This document shows, one piece after another, positions 15,350 to 33,428 of a stretch of 58,703 nt of DNA. Made by a program: the position numbers and the translations under genes. Below the pieces are notes generated by a model that was not told the DNA's origin, did not search any database, and saw nothing but the letters and a program-made list of their open reading frames with translations. Location: the NCBI GenBank assembly GCA_004292755.1, contig RDXE01000045.1:1-58703 (forward strand). The letters run 5' to 3'. This DNA comes from Alphaproteobacteria bacterium. Lineage in GTDB: Bacteria > Pseudomonadota > Alphaproteobacteria > Elsterales > Elsteraceae. Each line of letters starts with the position of its first letter. Positions within the stretch are counted from its first letter, which is position 1.

Positions 15350-15493
15350 TGCTGAACCGAAAGAGTGGGATCGGTTGCTTGCAGAGCGGGGTCGTCGGCA
15401 CTACTCTGGCGCTGGAAGAGGCAGAATGCCCTTCGCGCGTCCAGTCCTGGCTGATTGGCGCAGACGACAGTTGACGGAAAAGGACCGCAAGCG

Positions 15494-18130
15494 ATGAGCG
15501 CGATCACTGGATTGTTCAGCCGAGCCACCACCAGTGTGTCTGGCTCTCCTCTGAGTGGAGCCCAGGCGGGTCAGGAAGTTGGCAAGCAAACCGCCGAACG
15601 CACCCAGCTGGAGACCGCGCGGCGCCAGATCCTACAAGGGTTACGGCAAATCACGGCCGCCCAGCGGCTGGTTGGCACACCGCCCTCCCAAGTCACGGTG
15701 GATGGGCGCATCAGCCTAACGCCGTCAACACTGTTCCAACGGATTGATCAGGCCGCCTCCTCCAAGACGCAGGAGGTGGATCAAGCGCTCACCGGGTATT
15801 CCACGGCCGTGCGGGAGTTGCGCTCCCGGCTGAGCACGCTGCCGCAGTTCACCCGGTCCTTGGTGATCAACGACCCTGCCGGTCTAACGGCGGCGCGTCA
15901 GGCACTGGCCCGCTATGCTGCCACCAGCGGTGATGACCGTATCCTGGAGGCGGGACGCGGCGCGCCATCCACGCGGGTTGACCTGAGCAATCAAACTGCG
16001 CGCCAAGAAACGCGGGTGCTGTTGAGCGATCTGGCGGCCGAGTTGGAAGCCGCCCGTGAAATCTACGCAGGCGAGCTGGCGAGCATTGAATTGCGTCTGG
16101 CCGGTGCCACGGGTGCCTTGGCCGCTGCGCGATCAGGGCAACCGCAGAACGGCTTGTTCAACACGGGATCGAACGCAGACATTGGCATCACCTTCGCGGA
16201 CCGCCGCCGCGACGTGAAGGTGAAAGAGCAGCTGATGGAGTTCCACAAGCAGCTCTCCCGCATTGGTCAAGTCATCGGTGATCCCGTCGAGCCGCTGAAC
16301 GCTGCGCGGGCCTTCTCTGTCTTTCCAACCACAATGCAAGATTGGTTGGATCGCGCACAGTTGGAAGACAATGCGCAGTCGGATTTCCGTGCGGAAGCAA
16401 TCCAGGAGTTCAACCGGCTGCGCACGCAGATCATCGACGGTATCAAAGCATTGACCCCGGTGACGGGTAAATCTCTGGTTGATCAGGACTCGATTTCGAA
16501 GTTGGTGGCAAAGCTGAAAGTGTATGCCGACACTTCGCCCATCGAGCGCCGCGACCCCAATGCGTTGGGTGAAGCCTATGCCCGCACCAATACGTCCGGT
16601 ACCACCGGCGACGCCCAAGCTGGCAAGCTGGACTTCAGCAAGTTCGGCGACGCGGCCGGTACCACGGCCGAGCGGTCAGAAGCGCGGCGGCTGTTGAACG
16701 AAATGACGATGCTGACCCGCGAGTTGCAGACCGCGGTCAACACCGAACTCGTGAGTGTCAACACCCGGATCACGGCCTCCGATGCCACGTTGACAGCGCT
16801 GACCGGCGGAGGTGGACGCATTGGCTCGGCCGTTGGTGTCAGCGCTGCCTTTGCGACCGGCAAGCGTCTTGTCAGCGCGACCGTCAAGGGCCTGGATCGC
16901 TTGATTGAGTTGGTGGGCACCCCCAACCCGTCCTTGACCGGCCAATCGGCACCAGTCCGCCAAGTCACCACCTTGCAAGATGCGATCACCAACACGGCCA
17001 CTGAGGAACTGCGCACCAAAGCAGCGAGCCAGTACAACGAGATTCTGGGCGAAATTCGCAAGCAGCTGGGTAAGCTTGGCAATGTTCCCGCGTCCCTGCT
17101 GCAAGACGGCGATCTCGCGACCACGCTGATGAACACGGTCAGCAGTTTTTCGGGTGGCCTGTCGGCCGATCGCTTGAGAGAGGGGCGGATCGCGTTCCAG
17201 CAGAACGAGACTGGTGACTTCTTTGACCTCAGCCGCCCTGGCGATGTCGATGGCACCACCTTCCAGCGCAGTCAGGCCCGTCGCGCCGCCAATGCCTTCT
17301 ACAACGCGCTGGTCCAGGCACGTACCCAGCTGGATCGCGAGTTGGTGTCACTGACCATCCAGGCTGACATTGCAGAAGCCCAGGCAAAGGCCGCGATCTC
17401 TGCGCTGGCGGGTGGCGCGGGCAGTGCCGTGACGGGGATCGCCGGTGCCGTTGCAACTCAAGGCTCCCCGGTTGCGGGTGGGCGCGGCCAAGTGGTCGGC
17501 TATCTGCAGGAAGTGACCAAGATCCAGCAGGCGATTGGTCAAGCGCCGGGCGCACCAGACAAGGCCGGGCGCAAGCGGACAGCGGCGTTCACCGCCTTCC
17601 AAAGTGTTGATCTGGCAGCCGATGAAAGCCGCCGGGGGCGCGCACTCAGCAGCTTCAACAGTGCAGTGTCAGACGCGCAAACTGGCGCTGCCAAAGCGCG
17701 CCGGGTCGGTGGCATCAACATCATCGACCGTGATGGGTTGGAGCGGGCCCGCACGACTTTTCAGACCACCATCAACGGCTCCACCAGCACGGACCGCATC
17801 CAACGCACGCCAGATGCCAGCGGCAACCCGCGCGCACCGCTGGAGGTCAGTGACCTGCGCCTGCGCCGCGCGGTCTCCGGGGAGTCGGGTGGCTTATCCC
17901 TCGCCAAGGAGGGCAACAACGTGGGCAATGATGGCGGCCGCTCCGAAGCACGCCGGAGTTTGAGCCAAACCTTGGCAGTCACTCGCGAGTATCGCACCCG
18001 CCTGATGCGGGAGTTGTTCAACCAGGACAGTGCCAGCGCCGCCTCGCGCTTCAACTCCGCAATCGCCAGTGCCGCCTATACGCGGGCGCTTGCGGATGAC
18101 GCACCATCCTTCTCAAGCGGACGGTTTTGA
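15494..18130 (+). CDS. Large cysteine-free protein with four ~200-residue internal repeats
   Basis: This gene product is not recognised. Its 878 residues contain no cysteine and one tryptophan; Ala, Ser, Thr, Gln and Arg dominate, and helix is predicted throughout. Four degenerate repeats run at about 40-225, 243-440, 457-650 and 665-862. Each has an amphipathic helix ending in VGxP/IGxP, a second helix pair, then (I/L)-x-D-x-(D/A)-(G/S)-L, an acidic loop, and a closing R-S-(E/Q)-ARR helix (positions 394, 592, 816; variant TARQETR at 169) leading to a RELVSL-like end. No signal peptide or membrane segment is seen, and the C-terminus is SSGRF. Cys-free helical proteins are common among surface or flagellar-type exported proteins, but export is only inference. 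The start has AAGGA 9 bases upstream. Confidence 0.85.
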   Translation: MSAITGLFSRATTSVSGSPLSGAQAGQEVGKQTAERTQLETARRQILQGLRQITAAQRLVGTPPSQVTVDGRISLTPSTLFQRIDQAASSKTQEVDQALTGYSTAVRELRSRLSTLPQFTRSLVINDPAGLTAARQALARYAATSGDDRILEAGRGAPSTRVDLSNQTARQETRVLLSDLAAELEAAREIYAGELASIELRLAGATGALAAARSGQPQNGLFNTGSNADIGITFADRRRDVKVKEQLMEFHKQLSRIGQVIGDPVEPLNAARAFSVFPTTMQDWLDRAQLEDNAQSDFRAEAIQEFNRLRTQIIDGIKALTPVTGKSLVDQDSISKLVAKLKVYADTSPIERRDPNALGEAYARTNTSGTTGDAQAGKLDFSKFGDAAGTTAERSEARRLLNEMTMLTRELQTAVNTELVSVNTRITASDATLTALTGGGGRIGSAVGVSAAFATGKRLVSATVKGLDRLIELVGTPNPSLTGQSAPVRQVTTLQDAITNTATEELRTKAASQYNEILGEIRKQLGKLGNVPASLLQDGDLATTLMNTVSSFSGGLSADRLREGRIAFQQNETGDFFDLSRPGDVDGTTFQRSQARRAANAFYNALVQARTQLDRELVSLTIQADIAEAQAKAAISALAGGAGSAVTGIAGAVATQGSPVAGGRGQVVGYLQEVTKIQQAIGQAPGAPDKAGRKRTAAFTAFQSVDLAADESRRGRALSSFNSAVSDAQTGAAKARRVGGINIIDRDGLERARTTFQTTINGSTSTDRIQRTPDASGNPRAPLEVSDLRLRRAVSGESGGLSLAKEGNNVGNDGGRSEARRSLSQTLAVTREYRTRLMRELFNQDSASAASRFNSAIASAAYTRALADDAPSFSSGRF

Positions 18131-19925: not shown

Positions 19926-20026
19926 TGTAGGGCCAACCGCACGCGCCATGCGGCGGTGACGGTCCCGCTTGCCGATCCGCGAATCGGATCGGCGTCCAAG
20001 ACCCCATCATGAGAAAGGGTGAGGCC

Positions 20027-21439
20027 ATGACCTCCCATCGTTTGTGCGCGGCTGCTGTTGCAGCGGCCGTCAGTTTCGCTCTGCCCAGTTTTGCCAACGA
20101 GCCAATCAACGCCCGCGCGCTGGTGGCAGCCGCAGCCGATGCAGCCGCCATCTATGACCTCGACACTGGGCAGGAGTTGGCGCGGATTGCACTCTCCTCC
20201 TCGGTCACCGATCTGGCAGTGACACGGGCTGGAATCGGCCTGATCAATGACACCGGCGCTCACCATGTGGTGGTGGTAGACCTTACCACCGCCCGTGAAA
20301 TCACCCGCCTGCCCGCCTCCCGCCTTGGCGGCAGACGCCCGGTTCATCTCTACCTGTCTCCGGTGATTGCCGGGCAGCAGATCGCTGTCGTGCTGAACGA
20401 TGGCGCTGGGCATGGCAGCCATGGCGCGGAGCCGCCGACCGATTCGACTGCCACGCTGATCGACGTGACCGTCGGCTCGCCCAGCTACCTGACGGCCGTG
20501 GGCGAGGTGCGACTGGGCCATGGGCACCACAAAGCCGCCTTCTCCCCAACCCTGCCGCGCATGGTGATCTCCAACATCAGTGACTGCACCAACGTGCTCA
20601 CGGTGGTGGATTTCGCCAATCCAGCCGAGCCTCAAGTCATCCACCAGTTCGCCCCAGCAGCGTTTGGACTGGACGGCAGCACGCCGATGCGGCGCTGCGA
20701 CGCATCGGGCCGCAACGGCGTTTCGCTCGCGCCCCATGGTGTCGCGAGTTCCGCCGCCAGCGGTCTGGTGTTCCATCATCTGACTGGTACCGGCCAGATT
20801 GCCGCGATTGATCTCAGCCAGACCCCGCCCGCGCTGTCAGTGGTCCAGACGGCCGGCACAGGCGGCGCATCGATCAAGGATCTGCCGGGCGGTGCCGTGA
20901 TCGTGGTGCCCCAACGAACCCCGCGGGAATTGGGGCTGCGCGGCGGTGGTCAACGCTGTCAGGTTGGCCAGCTCGCCGTGCTGGATGCCGTACGCCCAGC
21001 TCTGTTGGCCCAGCAGCCGATACTGTCGGGTGGTCCGGACTGTTCTGACAGTCTGGCCGGGCGAGCAGACGCCTATGCCGCGCCCGGATACGCGATTGCC
21101 CCGGATGGCCGTCATCTATTCGTGCAATTGGGGACACTTGGCGGTGTGCGCGAGGCCCGCTCGCGGGAGATCGCCGTGTTCGACTTGGGCCAACCTGCCC
21201 GTCCCCGCCAGTTGCCATCCATTCAGATTGGCGCTGGCGATGGCACCCGCGACCATGCCGTGACCGGCGATGGCCGCTTCCTTCTGGTGCCCAACAGCCT
21301 GGATGCCACTGTGTCCGTGGTCGCCATCGCCACCCGCACCGTGGTCAAAACCCTTCCAACCCTGCCCCGGCCAAGCCGGGTCGGCACCTTTGGGGCAGCT
21401 GGACCATCAAAGCCCGTTGGCCCGCCCTCCCTCAACTAA
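20027..21439 (+). CDS. Exported beta-propeller protein, possible metallochaperone (AztD-like)
   Basis: The 470-residue product starts with a signal peptide (RLCAAAVAAAVSFALPSFAN, cleavage expected after SFA) and is then beta-rich with repeated blades, as in YVTN/WD-type propellers. His-rich loops GAGHGSHGAEPP and LGHGHHKA could bind metal. The stretches GRRPVHLYLSP and PHGVASS recall the periplasmic zinc chaperone AztD, but the match is by eye and weak. Four to six cysteines may form disulfides. The start is the ATG preceded by AAAGGGTGAGG; an ATG 18 bases earlier is less likely. It is followed within 16 bp by another small exported protein. Confidence 0.7.
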   Translation: MTSHRLCAAAVAAAVSFALPSFANEPINARALVAAAADAAAIYDLDTGQELARIALSSSVTDLAVTRAGIGLINDTGAHHVVVVDLTTAREITRLPASRLGGRRPVHLYLSPVIAGQQIAVVLNDGAGHGSHGAEPPTDSTATLIDVTVGSPSYLTAVGEVRLGHGHHKAAFSPTLPRMVISNISDCTNVLTVVDFANPAEPQVIHQFAPAAFGLDGSTPMRRCDASGRNGVSLAPHGVASSAASGLVFHHLTGTGQIAAIDLSQTPPALSVVQTAGTGGASIKDLPGGAVIVVPQRTPRELGLRGGGQRCQVGQLAVLDAVRPALLAQQPILSGGPDCSDSLAGRADAYAAPGYAIAPDGRHLFVQLGTLGGVREARSREIAVFDLGQPARPRQLPSIQIGAGDGTRDHAVTGDGRFLLVPNSLDATVSVVAIATRTVVKTLPTLPRPSRVGTFGAAGPSKPVGPPSLN

Positions 21440-21862: not shown

Positions 21863-22627
21863 TTACGCAATGCGCTTCACCCAGGCGTCCGGCCAATGGG
21901 TTGGCATGCGGGTGTGGTCAAGCGCGCTTTCGTTGAAATGGAAGCCCGGTCGCTCCAGCACAAAATCGCTGCGTCCGGCCAGAAAGCCGCGCACGGCTTC
22001 GACGGCATTGTCGGTCTCCCACCCGGCTTGACCGCGCGGGACATCGGCTAGGCTTTGCATCAGCCCATCGGTCGCAACGATGTAGCTGCCAGGCGAGACG
22101 AAGCCGCAATAGGCCTCCAACTCGGCGCGGACATGATCGCGGTAGTGGTTGCTGTCCAAGATCACCAGCACGGTCTTGGCATCGCCGAGGCGCTGGCGCA
22201 CCGTCTCGACGGTCTCCGGTGCAATCGAGCTCCCGATCACCAGCTCAATGGCACCACCCAGCGGATGCTGCTCGATGGCGGCGCGATTGTGCGGGCGCAC
22301 CTCGATATCGATGCCGATCACCCGGCCGCCATTGCCGATGGCCTTCAACAGGCTGGCGTAGAAGATCAAGGAACCGCCATGGGCGACGCCCGTCTCGATG
22401 ATCAAGTCGGGCTTTAGCTGCCAGATCACCTCCTGCATGCGGATCATATCTTCCGGCAGCTGAATCACCGGGCGACCGAACCAGGTAAAGGTGTAGGAAT
22501 ACTTCTCGTTCCAGCCGACCTTGACCCAAAGGTCAGACAACAGCTCAAACGCCTCGCGCGAGTAAAGCGGCAGTAGGGCGCCATCACGCTCCACAGTTTG
22601 GGCAGTGGTATCGATGGTGAGCTTCAT
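21863..22627 (-). CDS. Cephalosporin hydroxylase (CmcI) family protein
   Basis: The 254-residue protein belongs to the CmcI-type family, a SAM-methyltransferase-like Rossmann fold found in antibiotic and surface-sugar clusters. Visible motifs are the SAM-site-like LIIETGVAHGGSLIFYASLL, the acidic strand VIGIDIEVRPHNR, and the metal-site region VLVILDSNHYRDHV. In glycan loci such proteins often act as sugar O-methyltransferases, although the family name implies hydroxylation. The start has GGGAGG upstream. It is the last gene of the deoxysugar cluster, 117 bp after the preceding methyltransferase gene. Confidence 0.85.
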   Translation of the reverse strand: MKLTIDTTAQTVERDGALLPLYSREAFELLSDLWVKVGWNEKYSYTFTWFGRPVIQLPEDMIRMQEVIWQLKPDLIIETGVAHGGSLIFYASLLKAIGNGGRVIGIDIEVRPHNRAAIEQHPLGGAIELVIGSSIAPETVETVRQRLGDAKTVLVILDSNHYRDHVRAELEAYCGFVSPGSYIVATDGLMQSLADVPRGQAGWETDNAVEAVRGFLAGRSDFVLERPGFHFNESALDHTRMPTHWPDAWVKRIA

Positions 22628-22744
22628 GCTGGCCTCCCGGTGGATTGCCCCAGATGGCCGAGTCCATTGGGGGCGACCCACATCACGGTGTGTATAGGGA
22701 TTGATTCAAGACGGATTTGGGACTTACGCCCTTCATTCAGACCA

Positions 22745-23920
22745 CTAGCCATCGAGGATGTCCGCGGTGATGCCCAGGGCTGCCACGTCGGCGGCGATCT
22801 CGGCGCGATAGTTGGGGTTCATGATCACGATTTGGCGCGGTGCCAGCATCGGCAGCGCTGCGGGAGCATAGACTGGGTGGCCGGACACCGGCACAAACCG
22901 CCCCTGCTTGCCGGGGTTCATGTCGATCAGTCCCGCAATCAGCGTGGCATCAGGGTCGATGGTGGTGGCGAAGGTCACGCCCTTGGCGCCGGCCCCCCAC
23001 ACCACTGTGGGCGAGCCCCGCTGCAGTTGAGCCTGCCAGTGGGCGATCTCGGCCGTGACGGCTGCCGCATAGCGCATCGCGGCCTGACCATCGCCCGCCG
23101 CTCTTGGCACGGGGACCGGTGCGCCCGCCCGCGCCTCTGCCCACAGATACTGGCCGTCAAACACGCAGTCCATCTGATCGACGATGAAACCACCGGCCTG
23201 GAGTGTTGCGTGCAGCGTGTCCGCAGTGAAGTAATTGCAGTGCTCATAGAACACGTCCTGCAGGACGGTCCCAGCAAATATCCAGTCGACGGTTGGCGTC
23301 TCAACAAACAGCCGGGCCTCGCTTTCGGTCCCCAGAGCCGCGCGGATCGCTGCAATAAAGCCGACGGGGTCAGACACGTGCTCAATCACATGGCGCGAGA
23401 CAACAGCATCGACGCCACCTGGAACTGATGCAGCGGCTTGGCGGTCAAACAAGCTTGCCTCGAACCGAACACCGGGTTCGGGTTCTCGCGGGCCGCGATA
23501 AGCGGGGTCGAAGCCCAGGGCCGCGCGCAGCCGCCCTGGGCCGCGCTGCGCCAACCGCCGGACAAAGCCGCCCTGCCCACAGCCAACCTCCAGCACGGTC
23601 GCTCCCACCGGCAGCGCACCGATGACGCGGTCCGCCATGGCATCAAGGTGGCGGGCGAAGGTGCGCGACAGGCTTTGATCGTTCTCGTAGTCAGCGCCAT
23701 AGGCGATCAGCTGAGGGTTGAAGGCGTGATTGTGGGTGAAGCCACAGTCGCCACACCGCAGCAGCGCCAAATCGCCCCGCGGTGCGGCACGGGCCGCTGC
23801 TGCGGTTGCCAGCAGCGCGTTTTGGAACACTGGCACACCGGTGCGCTCCAACACCGGAGTCAGTGCTTGGCTGCCGCACAGTGGGCAGGCTGCTGGAGAC
23901 GCGACCGAGGTCTGGGTCAT
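22745..23920 (-). CDS. Sugar C-methyltransferase-like SAM enzyme
   Basis: The 391-residue enzyme has an N-terminal zinc-binding unit (CPLCG and CGDCG) and a class I SAM fold with VLEVGCGQGGFVRRL and VSRHVIEHVSDPVGF. Its C-terminal Rossmann-like domain VVWGAGAKGVTFATT...IDMNPGKQGRFVPVSG is typical of the TylC3/NovU-type C-methyltransferases. Such enzymes methylate carbon 3 of NDP-4-keto-deoxysugars. The start codon overlaps the upstream stop as ATGA, so it is co-translated with the epimerase/reductase gene. It is the second enzyme of this family in the cluster. A distinct substrate is likely, and O- rather than C-methylation cannot be excluded. Confidence 0.85.
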   Translation of the reverse strand: MTQTSVASPAACPLCGSQALTPVLERTGVPVFQNALLATAAAARAAPRGDLALLRCGDCGFTHNHAFNPQLIAYGADYENDQSLSRTFARHLDAMADRVIGALPVGATVLEVGCGQGGFVRRLAQRGPGRLRAALGFDPAYRGPREPEPGVRFEASLFDRQAAASVPGGVDAVVSRHVIEHVSDPVGFIAAIRAALGTESEARLFVETPTVDWIFAGTVLQDVFYEHCNYFTADTLHATLQAGGFIVDQMDCVFDGQYLWAEARAGAPVPVPRAAGDGQAAMRYAAAVTAEIAHWQAQLQRGSPTVVWGAGAKGVTFATTIDPDATLIAGLIDMNPGKQGRFVPVSGHPVYAPAALPMLAPRQIVIMNPNYRAEIAADVAALGITADILDG

Positions 23921-24777
23921 GGCTGCCCCCGCCACCAGGTCACGACGTCAGCCAACCCCTGCTCCAAGCTGACTGCAGGGCGAAAGCCAACCTCCCGCCG
24001 CAATCGGACAATGGAGGCGACCAGCCGCTCCGGCTCCCCAGTGCGGGCAGGCAGCGCCCCCACAGCCACGGCTGGCCCCCCCGCAGTCGCGGCCGCCCGG
24101 GTTGCGAGTTCCTTGATTTGCATCGGGCGGCCATCCCCGATGTTGACCGGTCCGGTCACACCCGACACCGCCAAGGCCGCAATGGCAGCGCCAGCGTCGC
24201 GACTGTCCAGGAAGCAGCGCCAGCCAGTGCCCGGCCCCAGTGGCGCGGCCTTGCCAGCCAGCGCCGCCCGGATGACTGACGGCACCAGACGGCGCGGATC
24301 CTCGCCTTCGCCAAAGCTGAAGAACACCCGTGCCCACGCATCCTTGGGTCCCAGCATCCCGGCCAAGGCGGCCTTCGCCTGGCCATAGCGGGTGGCCGGA
24401 CGGATCGGTGTGCGTGCTTCATCGGCGTCGCTGACGGCCAATGCGGGGGCGGTCCAATCATACTCCGCACAGCTGCCGACGCCGACGATGCGCTTGGTTC
24501 CCGCGGCGCGGAGGCGCTGCACCAGATCGCGCATTGCTGCCAGCCATTGGTCGTTCTCCGGCGCCTCCCAATAGGCGCCGTGCTCCGTCACCCAAGCGGT
24601 CAGCACCGCCACCTCCGGTGCCAGGGCCGCCACGGCCGCCCGGCCATCCTCGGTCAGCAGGTCAGCTGACACGTCAGCACCGCGCCGGGCAACGCCGATG
24701 GCGCCTCGGTCCGCCAACGCGCGACAGACATGGCGGCCAAGAAACCCAGTCGCCCCCGTGACCAAGATGCGAGTCAT
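23917..24777 (-). CDS. NAD-dependent epimerase/dehydratase (sugar 4-ketoreductase-like)
   Basis: This extended SDR has 286 residues. Its nucleotide-binding motif ILVTGATGFLGRHVC is at the N-terminus, with an active-site Ser region GVGSCAEYDWT and the YxxxK pair in RYGQAKAALAG. A C-terminal substrate domain ends LEQGLADVVTWWRGQ. In a CDP-deoxysugar operon it most likely reduces the 4-keto group at the end of the pathway. The ATG overlaps the rfbC-like stop by 4 bp, and an in-frame extension upstream lies inside that gene. The substrate stereochemistry cannot be read from the sequence. Confidence 0.88.
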   Translation of the reverse strand: MTRILVTGATGFLGRHVCRALADRGAIGVARRGADVSADLLTEDGRAAVAALAPEVAVLTAWVTEHGAYWEAPENDQWLAAMRDLVQRLRAAGTKRIVGVGSCAEYDWTAPALAVSDADEARTPIRPATRYGQAKAALAGMLGPKDAWARVFFSFGEGEDPRRLVPSVIRAALAGKAAPLGPGTGWRCFLDSRDAGAAIAALAVSGVTGPVNIGDGRPMQIKELATRAAATAGGPAVAVGALPARTGEPERLVASIVRLRREVGFRPAVSLEQGLADVVTWWRGQP

Positions 24778-25304
24778 GGCTGCCACTCCGGCAGGTCCAA
24801 ATCGCGCGGGCTGAGGGCGACAGGCGGCAGGGGCCACGGGATCGCAAGGCGCCGATCATCAAAGCGCACGCCCCGCGCCGCACCACCAACATACTCCGGT
24901 GAAATGCCGTATAGCAGCTCGCTGTCGGCTTCCAAGGTTTGGAAGCCGTGTGCGCAACCGGGCGGGATGTAGAGGGCACGACCCGTGGTCGCCGATAGTT
25001 CCACCGCCACATGCTGCCCGCGGGTGGGCGAGCTGGCGCGCAGATCGACCGCAACGTCAAACACCCGGCCTCTGGTGCAACGGACCAGCTTTGCTTCCTG
25101 GTGTGGGTCGGCCTGCCAATGCAGCCCACGCAGGGTGCCTGCCAATCGATTGAACGACACCGACCACTGCCGGTCGCAGGGCTGCAGCCCATGAGCAGCA
25201 AACTCAGCTGCGTCATAGCTGCGGGCGAAGTAGCCGCGCTCATCCTCGCGCCGGTCCAGATCCACGATCCAGACACCCTCCAACGCTGTGGCGGTGAAGA
25301 TCAC
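24774..25304 (-). CDS. rfbC: NDP-4-keto-6-deoxysugar 3,5-epimerase (RfbC family)
   Basis: This cupin-fold epimerase has 176 residues. It has the family signature stretch DERGYFARSYDAAEFAAHGL, the catalytic His in TLRGLHWQADPHQEAKLVRC, DVAVDLRASSPT, and YIPPGCAHGFQTLE with the second conserved His. The GTG start overlaps the upstream stop as GTGA, giving a normal N-terminus VIFTATALEGVW. Although called dTDP-rhamnose epimerase in many genomes, the neighbours are CDP-glucose enzymes, so a CDP-sugar substrate is inferred. Confidence 0.9.
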   Translation of the reverse strand: MIFTATALEGVWIVDLDRREDERGYFARSYDAAEFAAHGLQPCDRQWSVSFNRLAGTLRGLHWQADPHQEAKLVRCTRGRVFDVAVDLRASSPTRGQHVAVELSATTGRALYIPPGCAHGFQTLEADSELLYGISPEYVGGAARGVRFDDRRLAIPWPLPPVALSPRDLDLPEWQP

Positions 25305-26533
25305 GGGTGAACCGCCACCGTCGGCACCGGCGTGACGAACTGTCCACCCCAGGCGCGGATGCCAGACATCTGGTCCATGATCTCCGCCTTCAGGTTCCAC
25401 GGCAGGATCAACAGATAGTCCGGTCGGGTTTCCATCACTCGCTCCGGCGCGAAGACGGGAATCCGGCTGCCGGGCAGCAGGGTGTTCTGCTTCACGGGAT
25501 TGCGGTCCACCACATAAGCGACGTCGTCCGCGGTGACCCCGCAGAAGTTCAACAGCGTGTTGCCCTTTGCGGCCGCCCCATACCCAACCACGGACTTACC
25601 AGCACGCCGAGCATCGGCCAGGAACTCCATCAACGCATGGCGGCAATGGGCCACGCGGTGACCGAAGCTGTGATAGACCTCGCTGTGGTGCAAGCCAGCA
25701 GCGGCCTCGTCACCCCGAACGGCAACCAAACCCGGCGAGGTGCCAGCCCCGCCCTTGCGCCCCCACACCCGCAAGGAGCCGCCATGGGTGGGCAGGCGCT
25801 CGACATCGAACAGGCCCAAACCGTGGCGGGCCAGCGCAGGCTCCAGTGCTGCCAGCGATAGGTAGGAGAAGTGTTCGTGATAAATCGTGTCGAACTGCAC
25901 GTCCTCAATCAAGCGCAGCAGGTGTGGAAACTCGAACGTGAACACAGATGACGCGTCTTTGAGGGCAATGGCGACACCGCCCAGGAAGTCATTCAAGTCG
26001 GGCACATGGGCCAGCACATTGTTGCCCAACAGCAAATCTGCCGCGCGCCCCTCCGCCACAAGACGGCGGGCAGTGTCGCGCCCGAAGAAGGCGACATCCG
26101 TTGGCACGCCCTTCTGCTCCGCCACGGCAGCGACATTGGCTGCAGGCTCAATGCCAAGAACAGGAATGCCATGGGGCAGGAAGTGCTGCAGCAAATAGCC
26201 ATCGTTGGACGCAATCTCCACCACCAGCGAGCTGCTGGACAGCCCAAGACGGGGGATCACGGCTTCAACGTACCGGCGGGCATGCTCCACCCAACTGGTG
26301 GAGTAGGACGAGAAATAGGCATAGTCGCTAAACAAGTCTGCAGGCGGCATATCGTAATCGACCTGCACCAGCCGACAGACATCGCACACCACGGTGCGCA
26401 GCGGAAACGCTCGATCCGGCACGTCCGCCCGCTCGACCGGGACATAGGCATTGGCCGAGGGCATAACGCCCAAATCGACAAAGGTTTCCGTGCAGGTGCC
26501 ACCGCAGGACCGGCAGCGGTGCGGGCTGGTCAC
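25301..26533 (-). CDS. NDP-sugar C-3 methyltransferase
   Basis: The 410-residue protein has the three parts of TylC3/NovU-type enzymes. These are a zinc-binding N-terminus (CRSCGG and CDVCRLVQVDYD), a SAM domain (LVVEIASNDGYLLQHF, LGNNVLAHVPDLNDF, FEFPHLLRLIEDVQFDTIYH), and a C-terminal domain with GYGAAAKGNTLLNFCGV, VVDRNPVKQNTLLPGS and LLILPWNLKAEI. The HEHF that follows DTIYH is the usual catalytic His/Glu region. It should add a methyl branch to the 4-keto-6-deoxy sugar made by RfbG. Start and stop overlap both neighbours by 4 bp. Confidence 0.92.
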   Translation of the reverse strand: MTSPHRCRSCGGTCTETFVDLGVMPSANAYVPVERADVPDRAFPLRTVVCDVCRLVQVDYDMPPADLFSDYAYFSSYSTSWVEHARRYVEAVIPRLGLSSSSLVVEIASNDGYLLQHFLPHGIPVLGIEPAANVAAVAEQKGVPTDVAFFGRDTARRLVAEGRAADLLLGNNVLAHVPDLNDFLGGVAIALKDASSVFTFEFPHLLRLIEDVQFDTIYHEHFSYLSLAALEPALARHGLGLFDVERLPTHGGSLRVWGRKGGAGTSPGLVAVRGDEAAAGLHHSEVYHSFGHRVAHCRHALMEFLADARRAGKSVVGYGAAAKGNTLLNFCGVTADDVAYVVDRNPVKQNTLLPGSRIPVFAPERVMETRPDYLLILPWNLKAEIMDQMSGIRAWGGQFVTPVPTVAVHP

Positions 26534-27594
26534 GAGGCCATCCTTTCCTCATAGCGCATGATTTGCGTGAGGCTGAGGGTGCGCAGATTGGCACCCTCGC
26601 CTTGGGCCAACGCCCAGTCCACCGTCCAGCCGACAGCCTCAGTGACCGACAGCCGAGGCTGCCAGCCCAACTGGGTTTGGGCCAGCGAGGGATCAAGGGC
26701 CAAGCGCTTGGCCTCGGGCGGGCCGGGTTCGCCGTCTTGCTGCCATTGACCGCGTCCAAGCGCCGCCAACGCCAACTCGATGACTTGGCGCACACTCCAC
26801 ACCCCCTCCCGGTCGGGTCCGAAATTGACGGCGGGGGGGGAGCGACCAGTGACCATTTGTTGGGCCAGCAGCAGATAGCCAGCCAGTGGCTCCAGCACAT
26901 GCTGCCAGGGCCGCGTCGCTTCCGGGTTGCGCAGCAAAAGGGGCGTTCCGGCCCTCACAGCGCGAAACAAATCCGGCAGCAGGCGATCTTCTGAAACATC
27001 ACCCCCGCCAATCACATTGCCTGCCCGCGCGGTGGCGAGTGCCATACCCTGGCGGTCGCCGACAGCCGTTCGCCAGCTCGCCACCAACAGTTCACAGGCT
27101 GCCTTCGAGGCGCTGTAGGGGTCCTTGCCACCCAACGGATCGCCCTCCACAAAGGCGCGACCGCGGTCATCATTGGCGTAAACCTTGTCGGAGGTGACCA
27201 CCACGGTCGCTCGCGGTGATGGGACAAGGCGCAACGCATCCAACAGATTGGCCGTGCCCTGAACGTTGGTCGCAAAGGTCTCCACTGGCTCGCGGTACGA
27301 CCGGCGCACCAAGGCCTGAGCGGCCAAATGGAACACAACCTCGGGCGCGATGGCGGAGACCACTGGTGCGAGGGCCGACCGGTCGCGAATGTCGATCCAG
27401 TGGCTGGACGCGACGCGTGGCAGCACCGCCTGCCACAGGCCTGCCGCCGAGCCAGCCGGTGTTTCAGGCGGCAGGGCGATGCCATGGACCTCTGCCCCCA
27501 GCCGTTCCAGCCAGAGGGCAAGCCACGCGCCTTTGAAGCCCGTGTGGCCGGTCAGCAGCACGCGCCGCCCGACCCAAAAACTGCGATCAATCAC
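26530..27594 (-). CDS. rfbG: CDP-glucose 4,6-dehydratase
   Basis: The enzyme converts CDP-glucose to CDP-4-keto-6-deoxyglucose. The 354 residues show the diagnostic [19 protein letters not shown] at about 11-29, the catalytic Thr-Ser-Asp-Lys strand [11 protein letters not shown], the YxxxK pair in [13 protein letters not shown], and [16 protein letters not shown]. The GTG start gives [11 protein letters not shown], matching the family N-terminus (MI..FW.GKRV), and overlaps rfbF by 8 bp. A GTG 27 bases earlier is possible but fits less well. It acts directly after RfbF. Confidence 0.95.
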
Positions 27595-28363
27595 TCCAGG
27601 TCTTCCATGGTGCGCGGCCACTGTCCCAGGCCGCTTCTAACAGTTCGCGCTCACGAAGAGTATCCATCGGCTGCCAAAAGCCCCGATGGCGCCAGGCCGC
27701 AAGTTGCCCTTGTCCAACCAAGCGCTCGATTGGTTCGCGCTCCCACGCGGTGTCGTCGCCATCAATCTCGTCAATCACCTGGGGCGACAGCACAAAGAAA
27801 CCACCATTGATCAGGCCGCTCTCCCCCGGCGGCTTTTCTTCAAAGGCGACGATGCGATCGCCGTCCAGAACAGCTGCACCGAAGCGCCCCGGTGGCTGCA
27901 CCACGGTCATGGTAGCCTTCAAACCATGGGCCTGATGGAAGGCAATCTGCCCCGTGACGTCGACATCACCCAAGCCGTCGCCATAGGTTAGGCAGAAGGC
28001 CTCGTCCTGGGCGACAAAGCGTTTAATGCGACGAACGCGACCGCCCGTCATGGTGTCCAAACCGGTGTCGACCAGCGTCACGCGCCATGGCTCGGTGCGA
28101 TTGTCATGATACTTTTTATAGTTGGTCGACAAATCAATCGTCACATCAGCGCCATGCAGAAAGTAATTGGCGAAATACTCTTTAATCATATATCCCTTGT
28201 ACCCAAGACATACGATGAAATCATTGATGCCATGGGCGGAATAGATCTTCATAATGTGCCAGAGGATTGGCCTGCCTCCGATCTCGATCATCGGCTTCGG
28301 CCGTAGATGAGACTCCTCACTGATGCGCGTGCCACGACCGCCAGCCAGTATCACCGCCTTCAT
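27587..28363 (-). CDS. rfbF: Glucose-1-phosphate cytidylyltransferase
   Basis: RfbF makes CDP-glucose from CTP and glucose-1-phosphate. The 258-residue protein shows the nucleotide-binding loop [20 protein letters not shown], the sugar-site [37 protein letters not shown], the metal-site [11 protein letters not shown], and the ending [20 protein letters not shown]. All are diagnostic for RfbF rather than RmlA. AAGGAG lies upstream of the ATG. It is the first gene of the sugar operon and is separated from the flagellar-side genes by a strong hairpin. Confidence 0.97.
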
Positions 28364-28393
28364 GGCACTCTCCTTCTTGACCCGCCAGTCTTG

Positions 28394-28431
28394 GACGACC
28401 GCGCGGCGAGGATGCCGCCGGCGCGGTCGTC
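28394..28431 (-). terminator. GC-rich hairpin between the flaF-side genes and the rfb operon
   Basis: GACGACCGCGC pairs perfectly with GCGCGGTCGTC (11 bp) around a 16-base loop that can itself pair GGCG with CGCC. It lies 12 bases after the stop of the small unknown gene. There is no T-tract. It may terminate that unit or attenuate read-through into rfbF. Confidence 0.6.
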
Positions 28432-28442
28432 GAACACCGGAC

Positions 28443-28748
28443 CTAGGCCTTTGCGATGCGATCAAGGATAGACCGCGTCACATCCAGCGTTTGCTCTGCC
28501 TGACCCGCCTTGCCCGCACCGTCTTCGATGCGCGCACGCACATAGGCCTCAACCTTGGCGGTGTCGATCGGGTGAGTGGCGTGGACAGCAGCCAGCATCG
28601 CTTCCAGCGAAATGATGTGACCAGCCATGATTTCGACGTGCTGGAACATCTGGTTGAACGCTTTCACGATCTCTGTCTGGAACTCGGTGACCTTCTTGTC
28701 GACATTGCCGACTGCAGCCACCATCGCGTTGTTGTTTTCGTCGCTCAT
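28443..28748 (-). CDS. Small helical hypothetical protein
   Basis: This 101-residue cytosolic protein is not recognised. It is predicted to be almost wholly helical with heptad-like spacing ([20 protein letters not shown], then [19 protein letters not shown]), so a coiled-coil oligomer is likely. It has no cysteine and no membrane segment. AGGAAG lies upstream of the ATG. It follows the dioxygenase gene by about 100 bp on the same strand, downstream of flaF/flbT, and ends at a strong hairpin. A flagellar or glycan-related role is inferred only from position. Confidence 0.7.
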
Positions 28749-28846: not shown

Positions 28847-29644
28847 TCAGTACGGGGTGGGATTGAAGTGGTCACACATGCGTATCTCAATGCTCAGGCG
28901 GGTCTGACTTGCCGCAGGCGGCATGTAGGTGCGGTGAATGGTGTGCTGATTGAACAACACCACGTCACCGGGCGCCAGAACCGGTCGGTAGCACTCTGAC
29001 CCAAACCGAGAAAATACTGTCTCCTCATCGACCTCAACAGTCGGATGGAGAGAATCGCTTCGGCTGGTCAACGACAGCAGCTCGTCCGTTGCAACTGGAA
29101 CCAGTTCTAAACTAGCCGCGTCCTGGCCGCAGGCAATCAACGGGACCCATAGATTGACGAACGAGGCATGAACGTAGTTCGCGACATCTTGATGAAACGG
29201 CAACACACTGGTGCGTGCCTTTGGACGCTGCCGCCGCGCCACCATCAACTGTTGAACTGTGTCACACTCGCTTGTTTGAAAGTACGCCTGCATCGCATGA
29301 TAGACTGGAGACGCCTTTACTGCGGCTTCGATCACTCCGTGCGGGTGAAACCCCAAAGGGGCAATCATTTCGAGTATCTCGCGATACAGAACGAAATCGC
29401 GCTCGACAAAATCTGCGCGGAATTGGTTGAGACCCGTATACCCGAAAAACTTCGATCGCGCGTCTGCTAGGTCGAATCCCATCGAGACGCAGAATTTCAA
29501 ATAGTCAATAAACTCAGGGGGAAACACCGAGCGTAGAACACAAACACCGGTTCCACGCATTATTTCTCCAGCCTCTCGAACATCAGCCCCTGGAGCAAAG
29601 TCCAGATAGCTGAACAAGTCATTGGATGCGGCAACCTCGCTCAT
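28847..29644 (-). CDS. PhyH-type Fe(II)/2-oxoglutarate dioxygenase
   Basis: The 265-residue protein has the double-stranded beta-helix iron site of phytanoyl-CoA dioxygenase-like hydroxylases. The HxD pair is in VLPFHQDVANYV, the distal His is in LFNQHTIHRTYMPP, and the 2-oxoglutarate Arg is in QTRLSIEIRMCD. Such enzymes hydroxylate small molecules, lipids or sugars using oxygen. Its ATG overlaps the flaF stop as TGATG, so translation is coupled to flagellin regulators. The target could be a flagellin side chain or a glycan precursor; this is inference. An alternative GTG start lies one codon earlier. Confidence 0.85.
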   Translation of the reverse strand: MSEVAASNDLFSYLDFAPGADVREAGEIMRGTGVCVLRSVFPPEFIDYLKFCVSMGFDLADARSKFFGYTGLNQFRADFVERDFVLYREILEMIAPLGFHPHGVIEAAVKASPVYHAMQAYFQTSECDTVQQLMVARRQRPKARTSVLPFHQDVANYVHASFVNLWVPLIACGQDAASLELVPVATDELLSLTSRSDSLHPTVEVDEETVFSRFGSECYRPVLAPGDVVLFNQHTIHRTYMPPAASQTRLSIEIRMCDHFNPTPY

Positions 29645-30093
29645 CACACCGCCCCAGACTCTTGGGATGCTGGGTCTTTGGCGTCCGGCAGTGGCTCCGG
29701 ATCAGGCACATCTTCTTCGCGAATGCCGCCAGTCGCTTGGGTCAAGCCCTGCGCGATGTTCCGATTGATGGAAATCAAAATGTCCACCTTGTGCGGCAGC
29801 CGATTTTGCAACAACGCACTGGTGTGTTTGTCAACAAAGGCGAACAGATTGAGGAGATTGACTTTCACCTCATCTGGTAGCGGATTGTTCGCGTCTGAGA
29901 TGTCGGTTGCCAGCGTACCCCAAAGCTTTAAGTTCAGCACCAACGTCTGATCAAACAGCTGCCGACGCACCGGCGGCTGGCGGATCACATTCATCCGTTT
30001 GACGGATTCAATCAGCGCTCGTGCCAGCGTTTCCTGCGGATTCCCGCCGATCTTCTGCGTCTTCACGTACGCCTGATAGCTGGGCTGTCCCAT
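29644..30093 (-). CDS. flaF: Flagellar biosynthesis regulator FlaF
   Basis: FlaF is needed for flagellin secretion/synthesis in Alphaproteobacteria and acts with FlbT on flagellin mRNA. The 149-residue protein shows the family pattern AYVKTQKIGGNPQETLARAL near the N-terminus. NLKLWGTLATDISDANNPLP and EVKVNLLNLFAFVDKHTSAL follow. The last 40 residues are acidic/proline-rich and longer than usual. AAAGGA lies before the ATG. The start lies inside flbT, giving an 86-bp out-of-frame overlap, and the stop overlaps the dioxygenase start. Confidence 0.9.
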   Translation of the reverse strand: MGQPSYQAYVKTQKIGGNPQETLARALIESVKRMNVIRQPPVRRQLFDQTLVLNLKLWGTLATDISDANNPLPDEVKVNLLNLFAFVDKHTSALLQNRLPHKVDILISINRNIAQGLTQATGGIREEDVPDPEPLPDAKDPASQESGAV

Positions 30094-30472
30094 GATCCAG
30101 GATCCTTTGCTCGTGCTGGATGAGTTTGCGGCAGACTTGCAAGGCAGCATAGAAATCAGCCGCCTCAACCAAGCGGTTGATCTCAAGCACCAAGTCCACG
30201 CTGCTTGGACTGGCGGCAATGAATTCAGCCAGGATTTGACGAAACAGCGCCAGACGCTGTTCACGCTGTTCCTGGCTGATGTAAATCATTTGGATCAAGA
30301 AAAAGATCCGTCGCGCGGGAGTCGTTGCATGCTCCTCACGCATGATATCTTTCTGGCGCAGCAACGAAGCTGTATTGTGGACAGCCAGTTCGCACCGACC
30401 GCCACAATTCTCGATCACAGCGCCATTGATCAGGATCTTTTCGTGCGGCTTTAAGGAAAGCTTCAGTGGCAT
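30008..30472 (-). CDS. flbT: Flagellin mRNA regulator FlbT
   Basis: FlbT binds flagellin mRNA leaders and represses or adjusts their translation in Alphaproteobacteria. The 154-residue sequence begins with the family hallmark LKLSLKPHEKILINGAVIEN. NTASLLRQKDIMREE, TPARRIFFLIQMIYISQEQR and the helical LVEAADFYAALQVCRKLIQHE follow. The start with AGGG upstream gives the expected N-terminus. Its final 28 codons are also read in another frame as the beginning of flaF. It is first in the flbT-flaF-dioxygenase unit; the flagellin genes themselves are not in the window. Confidence 0.93.
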   Translation of the reverse strand: MPLKLSLKPHEKILINGAVIENCGGRCELAVHNTASLLRQKDIMREEHATTPARRIFFLIQMIYISQEQREQRLALFRQILAEFIAASPSSVDLVLEINRLVEAADFYAALQVCRKLIQHEQRILDHGTAQLSGVREDAEDRRESAGNAGTSAD

Positions 30473-30897: not shown

Positions 30898-33342
30898 TTA
30901 CGCAGCGCGCGGCACTGGGTCCGCATCCCCCGTAACACTGCCGAAGGATTGCAGCGCTTCGGCAATCCGGATCGCAGCCGACTGGACAGCCGCCGCCGCG
31001 TCGGTCAACTGACCAGCAGCGGAGGCCACGGCCCGCGCCACATCGCGATTCTGCGTCGCCTTGGCCTCCAGACCGCTCAGTTCAATGGCGGCATCCTGCT
31101 GCCCAGAGGCGGCAGCACGGGCCGAACCAGCGATCCGCTGCACCAGGGCAACCAGGGCCTCGGTGGTTTGGGCGTCGGCTGTCATGCGCGCGCGAACCTC
31201 AGCGAAGCGCTCGGCTTCACCACCCACAGCACCGGCCGCGTCTCGGCTGGCAACCTGCGCGTCTGCAATGGCGACCAGCACGGCGGCCAAGGTCTCGCGC
31301 GCCGCACCGGCACCGTCGCGGAAGGCGCCAATGGTGCGCTCAATGTCATCCGTCAGCCGCTGGGTTTCGAAGGCAAGGCGCTTGACCTCCCCCGCCACCA
31401 CAGTGAAGCCGCGCCCAGCCTCGCCTGCACGCGTGGCTTCAATGGTGGCGTTCAGTGCCAGCATGTTGGTTTGATTGGCGATGCCACGGATGGATTGGGC
31501 AAAGCTGCCAATCTCCGCGGTCAAGGCCTCCAACTTGGCGAGTGCCGCGGTTGCAACTTCTGCCTGATCCCGACACACATGGGTCGAACGCTCGGCATCA
31601 ACCGACCGGTTGGCCGCCTGGGCCAGCGTCTGAGTGGCGCTGGCAACCGTGTCCGCACTGACCGCAACACTGGCGGAGGTGGTTTGAATCCGCCCCTCGG
31701 CCGCTGCCAGTTGCTCGGCCACCAAATGCTCTTCCGCCGCGCGTCGGATTTCATCCACAGCTAGGCTGGACAGCTGAGCGGCGGCGGCAGTTGCCGCACT
31801 TTCTGCCCCGCCCGCCTCCCGACTGAGCTTGGTTGCAAGCTCCGTCAAGGAGCGCGCCTCGACCATCAGCCCCGCCGCCCAGCGACCGGTGACAGAGACC
31901 ACATCCTCCAGTCGATCCAGGAAACGATTGACCTCGCTGCCAAGCTCCCCCGCTTCGTCACCACCCTCGGCTGCGAGGCGCTGGCGCAGGTCCAACGTGC
32001 CAGACGCGAGGTTGCGAAAGGCGTGGTTCAAATCATCGAAGCCAAGCTTCGTGCGATGTTCGGCAATGTTAAGGCCGATCATTTCGTCCTCGGGTGGCAC
32101 GCGGATGCCGCCCAGCTTGTGCCAACAGGCAAAGAACAGCCAAGCACAGCCGAAGGCCCAGACGAAGGCCGTGACCGCGCCAACCGCTTGAACTCCCAGC
32201 TGGCTCCAGCGATCAACACCGTTCAGCGCAGCCTCCGGCATCACCACTGCCAGCATCAAGGTGCCAAGGGTGCCACCGACACCATGCACCGCGACCGCAC
32301 CAACAACATCGTCAATCCGCAGATGCCGCTCCAACCAGTCTTGCGCCAGCGGCACAACAACTCCGGCGACTGCACCGATGATCACTGCACCCACGGTGTC
32401 CACCACCGCACAGCCTGCCGTGATGGCAACCAGACCACCCAACAGGCCGTTGATCACCCGGTCCGGGCGGTAGTACCCGTCGAGTACCCGGCCCAGCATC
32501 ATGCCAACCACTCCGGCCACACCACCGGCGATCATGGTGTGGGCAATGATCGGGCCGATTTCCGGCTTGGCGGCGGTGGTGGAGCCGCCGTTGAAACCAA
32601 TCCACCCGACGAACAACACCAAGGCGCCGGACGTGGCGAGCACCGGGCTGTGTCCCTGGATTGAGCGCGGAGTCCCATCGCTGGTGAACTTGCCAATCCG
32701 AGGGCCAATCACCAGCACACCGGCGAGTGCGATCCAGCCGCCGACCGCGTGAACAACGGTGGAGCCCGCAAAGTCAATGAACCCCATCGCGGCCAGCCAG
32801 GGTTGGTTGTCCGTCGCCAACAGATTACCCCAAGCCCAATGGCCGAAGATCGGATAGATCAAGCCGGATACCAGCAGGGTTGCGCCCAAATAAACCCCAA
32901 ACTTCATCCGTTCTGCCACTGCACCAGACAGAATAGTCGCTGCAGTGCCGCAGAACACCAACTGAAACACAAAGAATGCGAGCGGCCAGGAGTCGCCACT
33001 GTCGTTCAGCACAAGGCCAGAGGTGCCAATCAGGCCACCCCAGCTGTTACCAAACATCAACCCGAAGCCAACCGCCCAAAACACCACGGTGGCAATCACC
33101 ATGTCGGCGATGTTTTTCTGCGCGACATTGATTGAGTTCTTGGAGCGCGCAAGCCCAGCTTCCAGTAACAGAAACCCAACCTGCATCAGCAGCACCAGAC
33201 CGGCGGCCAGCAGCATCCAGACGAAGTCCATCGTCTTTTGCAGCTGGGCGAGCGTGAGTGTTTCTTCCGCTCCAGCTGGCAGAGCCAACAGGCACGTGAC
33301 CAACCCCGCTGGCACCCCCAACGCCAATCGCCTTGCGCGCAT
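30898..33342 (-). CDS. Ammonium transporter fused to HAMP-like and chemoreceptor signalling domains
   Basis: The 814-residue protein joins two known modules. Residues 30-410 form an Amt/Rh channel with a signal-like N-terminus. It keeps key residues: FFVFQ gate phenylalanines near 123-126, Asp190 (GFIDFAGS), the twin pore histidines His198 (VVHAVGG) and His353 (VAVHGVGG), and FNGGSTTAA. Residues about 440-480 resemble HAMP ([20 protein letters not shown]). Residues about 500-800 form an MCP coiled coil whose hairpin tip [20 protein letters not shown] is canonical. It should sense or move ammonium and signal to CheA/CheW. Amt fusions to histidine kinases and GGDEF domains are described; this pairing is rarer. 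The start has GGAGGA 6 bases upstream. Confidence 0.95.
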
Positions 33343-33428
33343 CGTTTCCTCCAGTATCACGGTTCAGGTTTGGTCTCTGCCGCCCGACTCGCTGGGTTTC
33401 TAGCAGCTTGGTTCATGTTACGAAAGTG

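Follow-up and report, generated by a model that had tools for sequence, protein, structure and literature searches.

A cysteine-free protein of four repeats

What might a bacterium use a large, Cys-free repeat protein for, when the protein matches no known family and is encoded close to flagellar genes? This question is raised by an open reading frame in a 58,703-nucleotide stretch of an Elsteraceae genome (contig RDXE01000045.1; hereafter the window). The frame lies at 15494..18130 on the plus strand, starts with ATG, and encodes 878 residues without a single Cys, exactly as a preliminary description made from the letters alone had reported. At the Cys content of the other window proteins (1.18%), approximately 10.4 Cys would be expected in a chain of this length. 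The chain consists of four degenerate repeat units, all on the plus strand: unit 1 (15494..16108, residues 1-205), unit 2 (16109..16783, residues 206-430), unit 3 (16784..17383, residues 431-630), and unit 4 with a C-terminal tail (17384..18127, residues 631-878). Residues 1-24 of unit 1 have no predicted structure and may represent a candidate export signal.

The fourfold repeat, which had also been claimed in that description, was examined by pairwise alignment of the units with 500 composition shuffles per pair. The alignment scores exceeded the shuffle maximum for units 2-4 (127 vs 68), 2-3 (121 vs 61), 1-4 (91 vs 70), 1-2 (88 vs 63), and 3-4 (88 vs 85), and the score of the weakest pair, 1-3 (68), was equalled by one of the 500 shuffles. 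Leave-one-out HMMs found the omitted unit with E-values of 1.5e-6 (unit 1), 2.7e-18 (unit 2), 4.5e-16 (unit 3), and 2.4e-15 (unit 4), the best E-value among 999 shuffles per unit being ~0.04. The four ~200-residue repeats are real. Of the motifs that had been read in them, the closing motif was found as RSEAR at residue 394, RSQAR at 592, and RSEAR at 816, and as RQETR at 170, one residue away from the position of 169 given before. The opening VGxP/IGxP is present at 60, 261, and 474, but unit 4 carries IGQAP, so that this motif holds for three of the four units.

A weak sigma54-like site, CGGCACTACTCTGGCG (15396..15411, plus strand), lies ~98 nt upstream of the start codon and is within chance. 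It resembles a site 96 nt upstream of the flagellin gene flaC35, and the pattern has three matches in the genome at no more than one mismatch, two of which had defined the pattern. Shuffles and other genes were equally similar, and a promoter element common to the repeat gene and flaC35 was rejected as not significant.

Distribution of the family

The preliminary description could not assign the protein, and our searches gave the same outcome. A Pfam scan at E-values up to 10 returned only a sub-threshold match to WWC1, no family in NCBIfam or PHROGs matched, and a sequence search of the PDB gave no convincing match. Neither Flagellin_N nor Flagellin_C was matched in Pfam, and by the same models no D0 N- or C-terminal segments, which form the filament core, were recognised. 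The Pfam scan also revealed no C-terminal Flg_hook domain, and identity with FliK was ruled out, as the FliK of this genome, with its Flg_hook domain, is encoded on contig C2. A 476-residue protein at 20009-21439 was considered as a paralog and showed no similarity.

Among 60 genomes, one relative of the last 125 residues was found, in the one further genome that represents the genus (hereafter the sister genome). It is a C-terminal fragment with 56% identity, broken off at a contig end, and corresponds to a portion of unit 4 and the tail. When 385 genomes of the class were searched with a profile, only the genome itself and one further match (G222; E 1.9e-4) were recovered; the latter is antisense to a histidine-kinase gene and was dismissed as chance. 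A scan of contigs from 84,980 species gave no more than the relative already found in the sister genome, which is a MAG with the label Alphaproteobacteria bacterium, and nothing related was found in the viral contigs, phages, and plasmids scanned. Because these searches gave only the genome itself and the sister relative, the family is restricted to one genus as far as these collections show.

Composition and the flagellin-handling island

The repeat protein contains no Cys, one His, and one Trp, and its combined Ser, Thr, Asn, and Gln content is 27.4%. The axial proteins of the genome that we compared (two flagellins, FlgK, FlgL, FlgE, a second hook-like protein, FlgD, and FliK) are all Cys-free, contain 22-38% of these four residues, and have little His or Trp. 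In contrast, the 28 cytosolic-type proteins of the window contain 11-18%, and their Cys, His, and Trp sum to at least 2.0% vs 0.23% in the repeat protein. Because its composition groups the repeat protein with the axial rather than the cytosolic-type proteins, we propose that it is exported, and this is the strongest support for the view that it is most likely a substrate of flagellar export. No signal-peptide-like or transmembrane hydrophobic stretch was seen in the protein, nor were RTX motifs (GGxGxD repeats), although type I export is also possible without RTX. Type I secreted surface proteins can share a Cys-free, Ser/Thr/Ala-rich composition, and for this reason the export route is one that we infer.

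The abundance of flagellar genes in this region, pointed out in the preliminary description, was borne out: flhB, fliR, flgC, and fliP are located at 1.2-6.6 kb of the window, and FlbT and FlaF at 29.6-30.5 kb. The FlbT-like gene (30011..30472) and the FlaF-like gene (29644..30111; flagellin export chaperone family), both on the minus strand and both assigned by sequence reading, belong to a minus-strand block at 21.9-30.5 kb that also encodes a PhyH-like protein, a nucleotidyltransferase, a CDP-glucose-dehydratase-like enzyme, C-methyltransferases, an epimerase, and an RMNT_CmcI methyltransferase. The sugar-nucleotide, epimerase, and methyltransferase genes of this conserved island (21863..28465, minus strand) probably serve a flagellin or surface glycan. 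Caulobacter flagellins are bound by FlaF, which acts as an export chaperone, by FlbT, which acts as a regulator, and by FlmG; FlbT also binds the regulatory flagellin FljJ, which is itself exported (PMC7591256).

In the sister genome, the FlbT/FlaF/glycan block is present in identical order with 44-90% identity. The relative of the repeat protein there directly adjoins the RMNT_CmcI gene in convergent orientation, whereas three extra genes separate the repeat gene from the glycan genes in the window. Beyond FlbT, the sister genome has argG (by sequence reading), and the window has a gene for an ammonium-transporter/MCP fusion. Because the association is shared by both genomes despite their differing flanks, it is suggestive, from two genomes, that the repeat gene stays with the FlaF/FlbT and glycan island while its surroundings change. 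The fusion protein (30898-33360, minus strand) combines an ammonium transporter domain, HAMP, and methyl-accepting chemotaxis domains in a single chain and is possibly an ammonium chemoreceptor. A 101-residue protein encoded at 28443-28748 (minus strand) has 62% identity to its counterpart in the sister glycan block; among the PHROGs, it weakly matches tail tape-measure proteins.

Predicted fold and comparison with flagellin D1

An AlphaFold2 model of the full-length protein without relatives had a pLDDT of 41 and was unusable for fold search, but its helix pattern repeats. The structure of one unit, whose prediction had been recommended before, was modeled from a slightly shifted copy of unit 2 (residues 222-440), and the input included the sister fragment and the remaining units. 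The model is a helical bundle (pLDDT 69, pTM 0.66) with a disordered loop between helices, which lie at 4-40, 60-69, 75-97, 110-121, and 171-217, and the long helices reach a pLDDT of ~90. In a Foldseek search of the PDB, Caulobacter flagellins occupied ranks 2-6 and 9 with weak E-values of 0.06-0.17, and a viral structure library gave no significant match. In VIA-align, the D1 domains of flagellin and FlgL accounted for over half of the 50 rows and covered the whole unit, with Z-scores of ~11-12.7, 155-172 aligned residues, and 2.4-4.0 A (mostly 2.5-3.1 A). Designed bundles and four-helix bundles of sensors equalled the flagellin Z-scores (the top row had 12.9), and a Z of ~12 is attained by helical bundles without kinship. 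The repeat units may thus have a helical D1-like fold, as predicted from one unit.

Sequence-based tests of kinship with flagellin D1 gave weak signals. In a profile-profile alignment (hhalign), the best match was flagellin ND1b with the following FNGxxLL loop (score 17.5); its probability was 0.6%, and one of 200 column shuffles was as good or better. With a flagellin D1 HMM, none of 1000 shuffles was as good as unit 2 and 19 of 1000 were as good as unit 3, and ND1b was followed by CD1 in the correct order in units 2 and 3 but not in units 1 and 4. A semiglobal profile test gave z values of 0.9-2.9 per unit and a summed z of 3.35 forward vs 0.85 reversed. This test has little power because FlgL, a known D1 protein, scored only 0.4-1.3, below an unrelated GGDEF segment (2.6). 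Taking these results together, kinship of the repeat units with flagellin D1 is possible.

The one-unit model aligns to flagellin residues ~47-231 (Caulobacter FljK/L/M/N, Shewanella, and Bacillus; Z ~12, ~160 residues, 2.5-2.8 A), and the repeat protein further resembles flagellin in the weak collinear HMM match and in being Cys-free and rich in Ser, Thr, Asn, and Gln. It differs from flagellin in its four tandem modules and in lacking any D0, Flagellin_N, or Flagellin_C match. FlgL/HAP3 proteins likewise have a D1-like core (Bacillus cereus FlgL, Z 12.1; Vibrio parahaemolyticus hook-associated protein, Z 11.6) and an axial composition; however, the repeat protein has four units, and the genome encodes its own FlgL and FlgK. 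Another genus of the same family has, in two genomes (G005 and G007), a Cys-free protein of ~300 residues at a flagellin/FlbT locus (L030:8706-9677, plus strand; L031:11270-12175, minus strand). These proteins are confined to their genus among the 385 genomes, have near-zero His and Trp, and show a weak local match to flagellin ND1b. They are one third of the length of the repeat protein, and no four-unit architecture was seen in them; kinship between the two was not detectable (hhalign probability 0.3%).

Proposed role and alternative explanations

The explanation that we tentatively put first is a lineage-specific flagellar export substrate, associated with the filament, in which four D1-like modules follow one another in tandem and D0 is missing. 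The protein would leave the cell through the flagellar export apparatus, after being handled by the nearby FlaF and FlbT, and might be glycosylated by the products of the linked island. Each module would be laid out as the D1 core of flagellin and FlgL, with a long N-terminal helix, shorter helices, an acidic loop, and a long C-terminal helix, and the variable acidic loop would sit where flagellins carry D2/D3. Four such modules in tandem would form one rod-like chain, which could match several neighboring flagellar subunits. As it has no recognisable D0 terminal segments, the chain would not form the core of the filament in the manner of flagellin; a likelier task would be to decorate, cap, or bridge either the filament or the hook-filament junction. 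Export route, flagellar position, and glycosylation are putative features of this model. That the genome encodes its own flagellins, FlgK, FlgL, and FliK elsewhere argues against a need for an axial substitute. A more specific version, in which a D0-less single-chain tetramer of D1-like domains is exported by the flagellum and forms a multi-subunit tile along or around the filament, appears unlikely.

The preliminary description had thought of a type III-exported filament protein. Axial composition, linkage to FlaF, FlbT, and glycan genes, and the D1-like one-unit model speak for this idea, while our sequence tests leave homology to flagellin no more than possible, and a type I or cytosolic role takes up part of the probability. 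A flagellum-associated or flagellar-exported protein might also be made of generic helical bundles that have no kinship with flagellin D1, for example, as a spacer, cap, or junction molecule. Composition and FlaF/FlbT linkage fit such a protein equally well, the bundle Z-scores are unspecific, and the hhalign probability and the overlapping controls of the semiglobal test agree with it; the predominance of flagellin/FlgL D1 domains in VIA-align, with coverage of the whole unit, and the collinear D1 HMM alignments in two units make it somewhat doubtful.

Departing further from our proposal, a surface or S-layer-like protein secreted by a type I system would be consistent with the composition and the lack of a signal peptide, and the linked glycan genes could make a surface polysaccharide. 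We regard this as improbable in view of the all-helical prediction, the FlaF/FlbT linkage, and the absence of RTX repeats, and no type I export partner was recognised among the window genes scanned. Least probable of all, and quite unlikely, is a protein that stays in the cytosol as a flagellin mimic or scaffold, where it would bind FlaF/FlbT or glycosyltransferases and tune flagellin export, by analogy with FljJ-FlbT in Caulobacter (PMC7591256). The flaF/flbT linkage, the possible D1-like units, and the binding of flagellins by Caulobacter FlaF, FlbT, and FlmG would suit it, but the composition is that of exported rather than cytosolic proteins, and FljJ is itself exported.

The repeat protein is a new, lineage-specific protein with a putative function. 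We found no relevant description of tandem flagellin domains in the open literature searched, and the D1-like multi-subunit tile, if true, would be a type of building block for flagella that is undescribed there. If the units of the filament-associated substrate that we favor are D1-like, tandem duplication of flagellar axial domains within one chain is possible, and the protein would make it possible to test how one polypeptide fills or bridges several adjacent subunit positions. The alphaproteobacterial FlaF/FlbT pathway for flagellin, in which the handling of substrates is still under study, would also gain an accessory specific to this lineage. Should the link to D1 fail, the protein would still represent a new family, restricted to one genus, of probable flagellar substrates.

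Other flagellar components of the genome

The genome encodes one FlhA, two flagellins, FlgK, FlgL, and FliK, with FlgK and FlgL on contig C1. We considered the repeat protein as a substitute for a missing FliD cap and dropped this idea as uninformative, as FliD_N is absent from this genome and also from the Caulobacter control. A second, distant FlbT-like match with one in-frame stop was found at L027 (contig C1:51223-51657), and the sister genome likewise has a second FlbT-like match (L028). The FlgL frame (L016:2598-5684, minus strand) is unusually long, encoding 1029 residues without Cys. In both flagellins (L014:4761-6005 and L015:3216-4430), a Ser/Ala-repeat middle region, SVASIASVASIAS..., replaces the ordinary D2/D3 domains.
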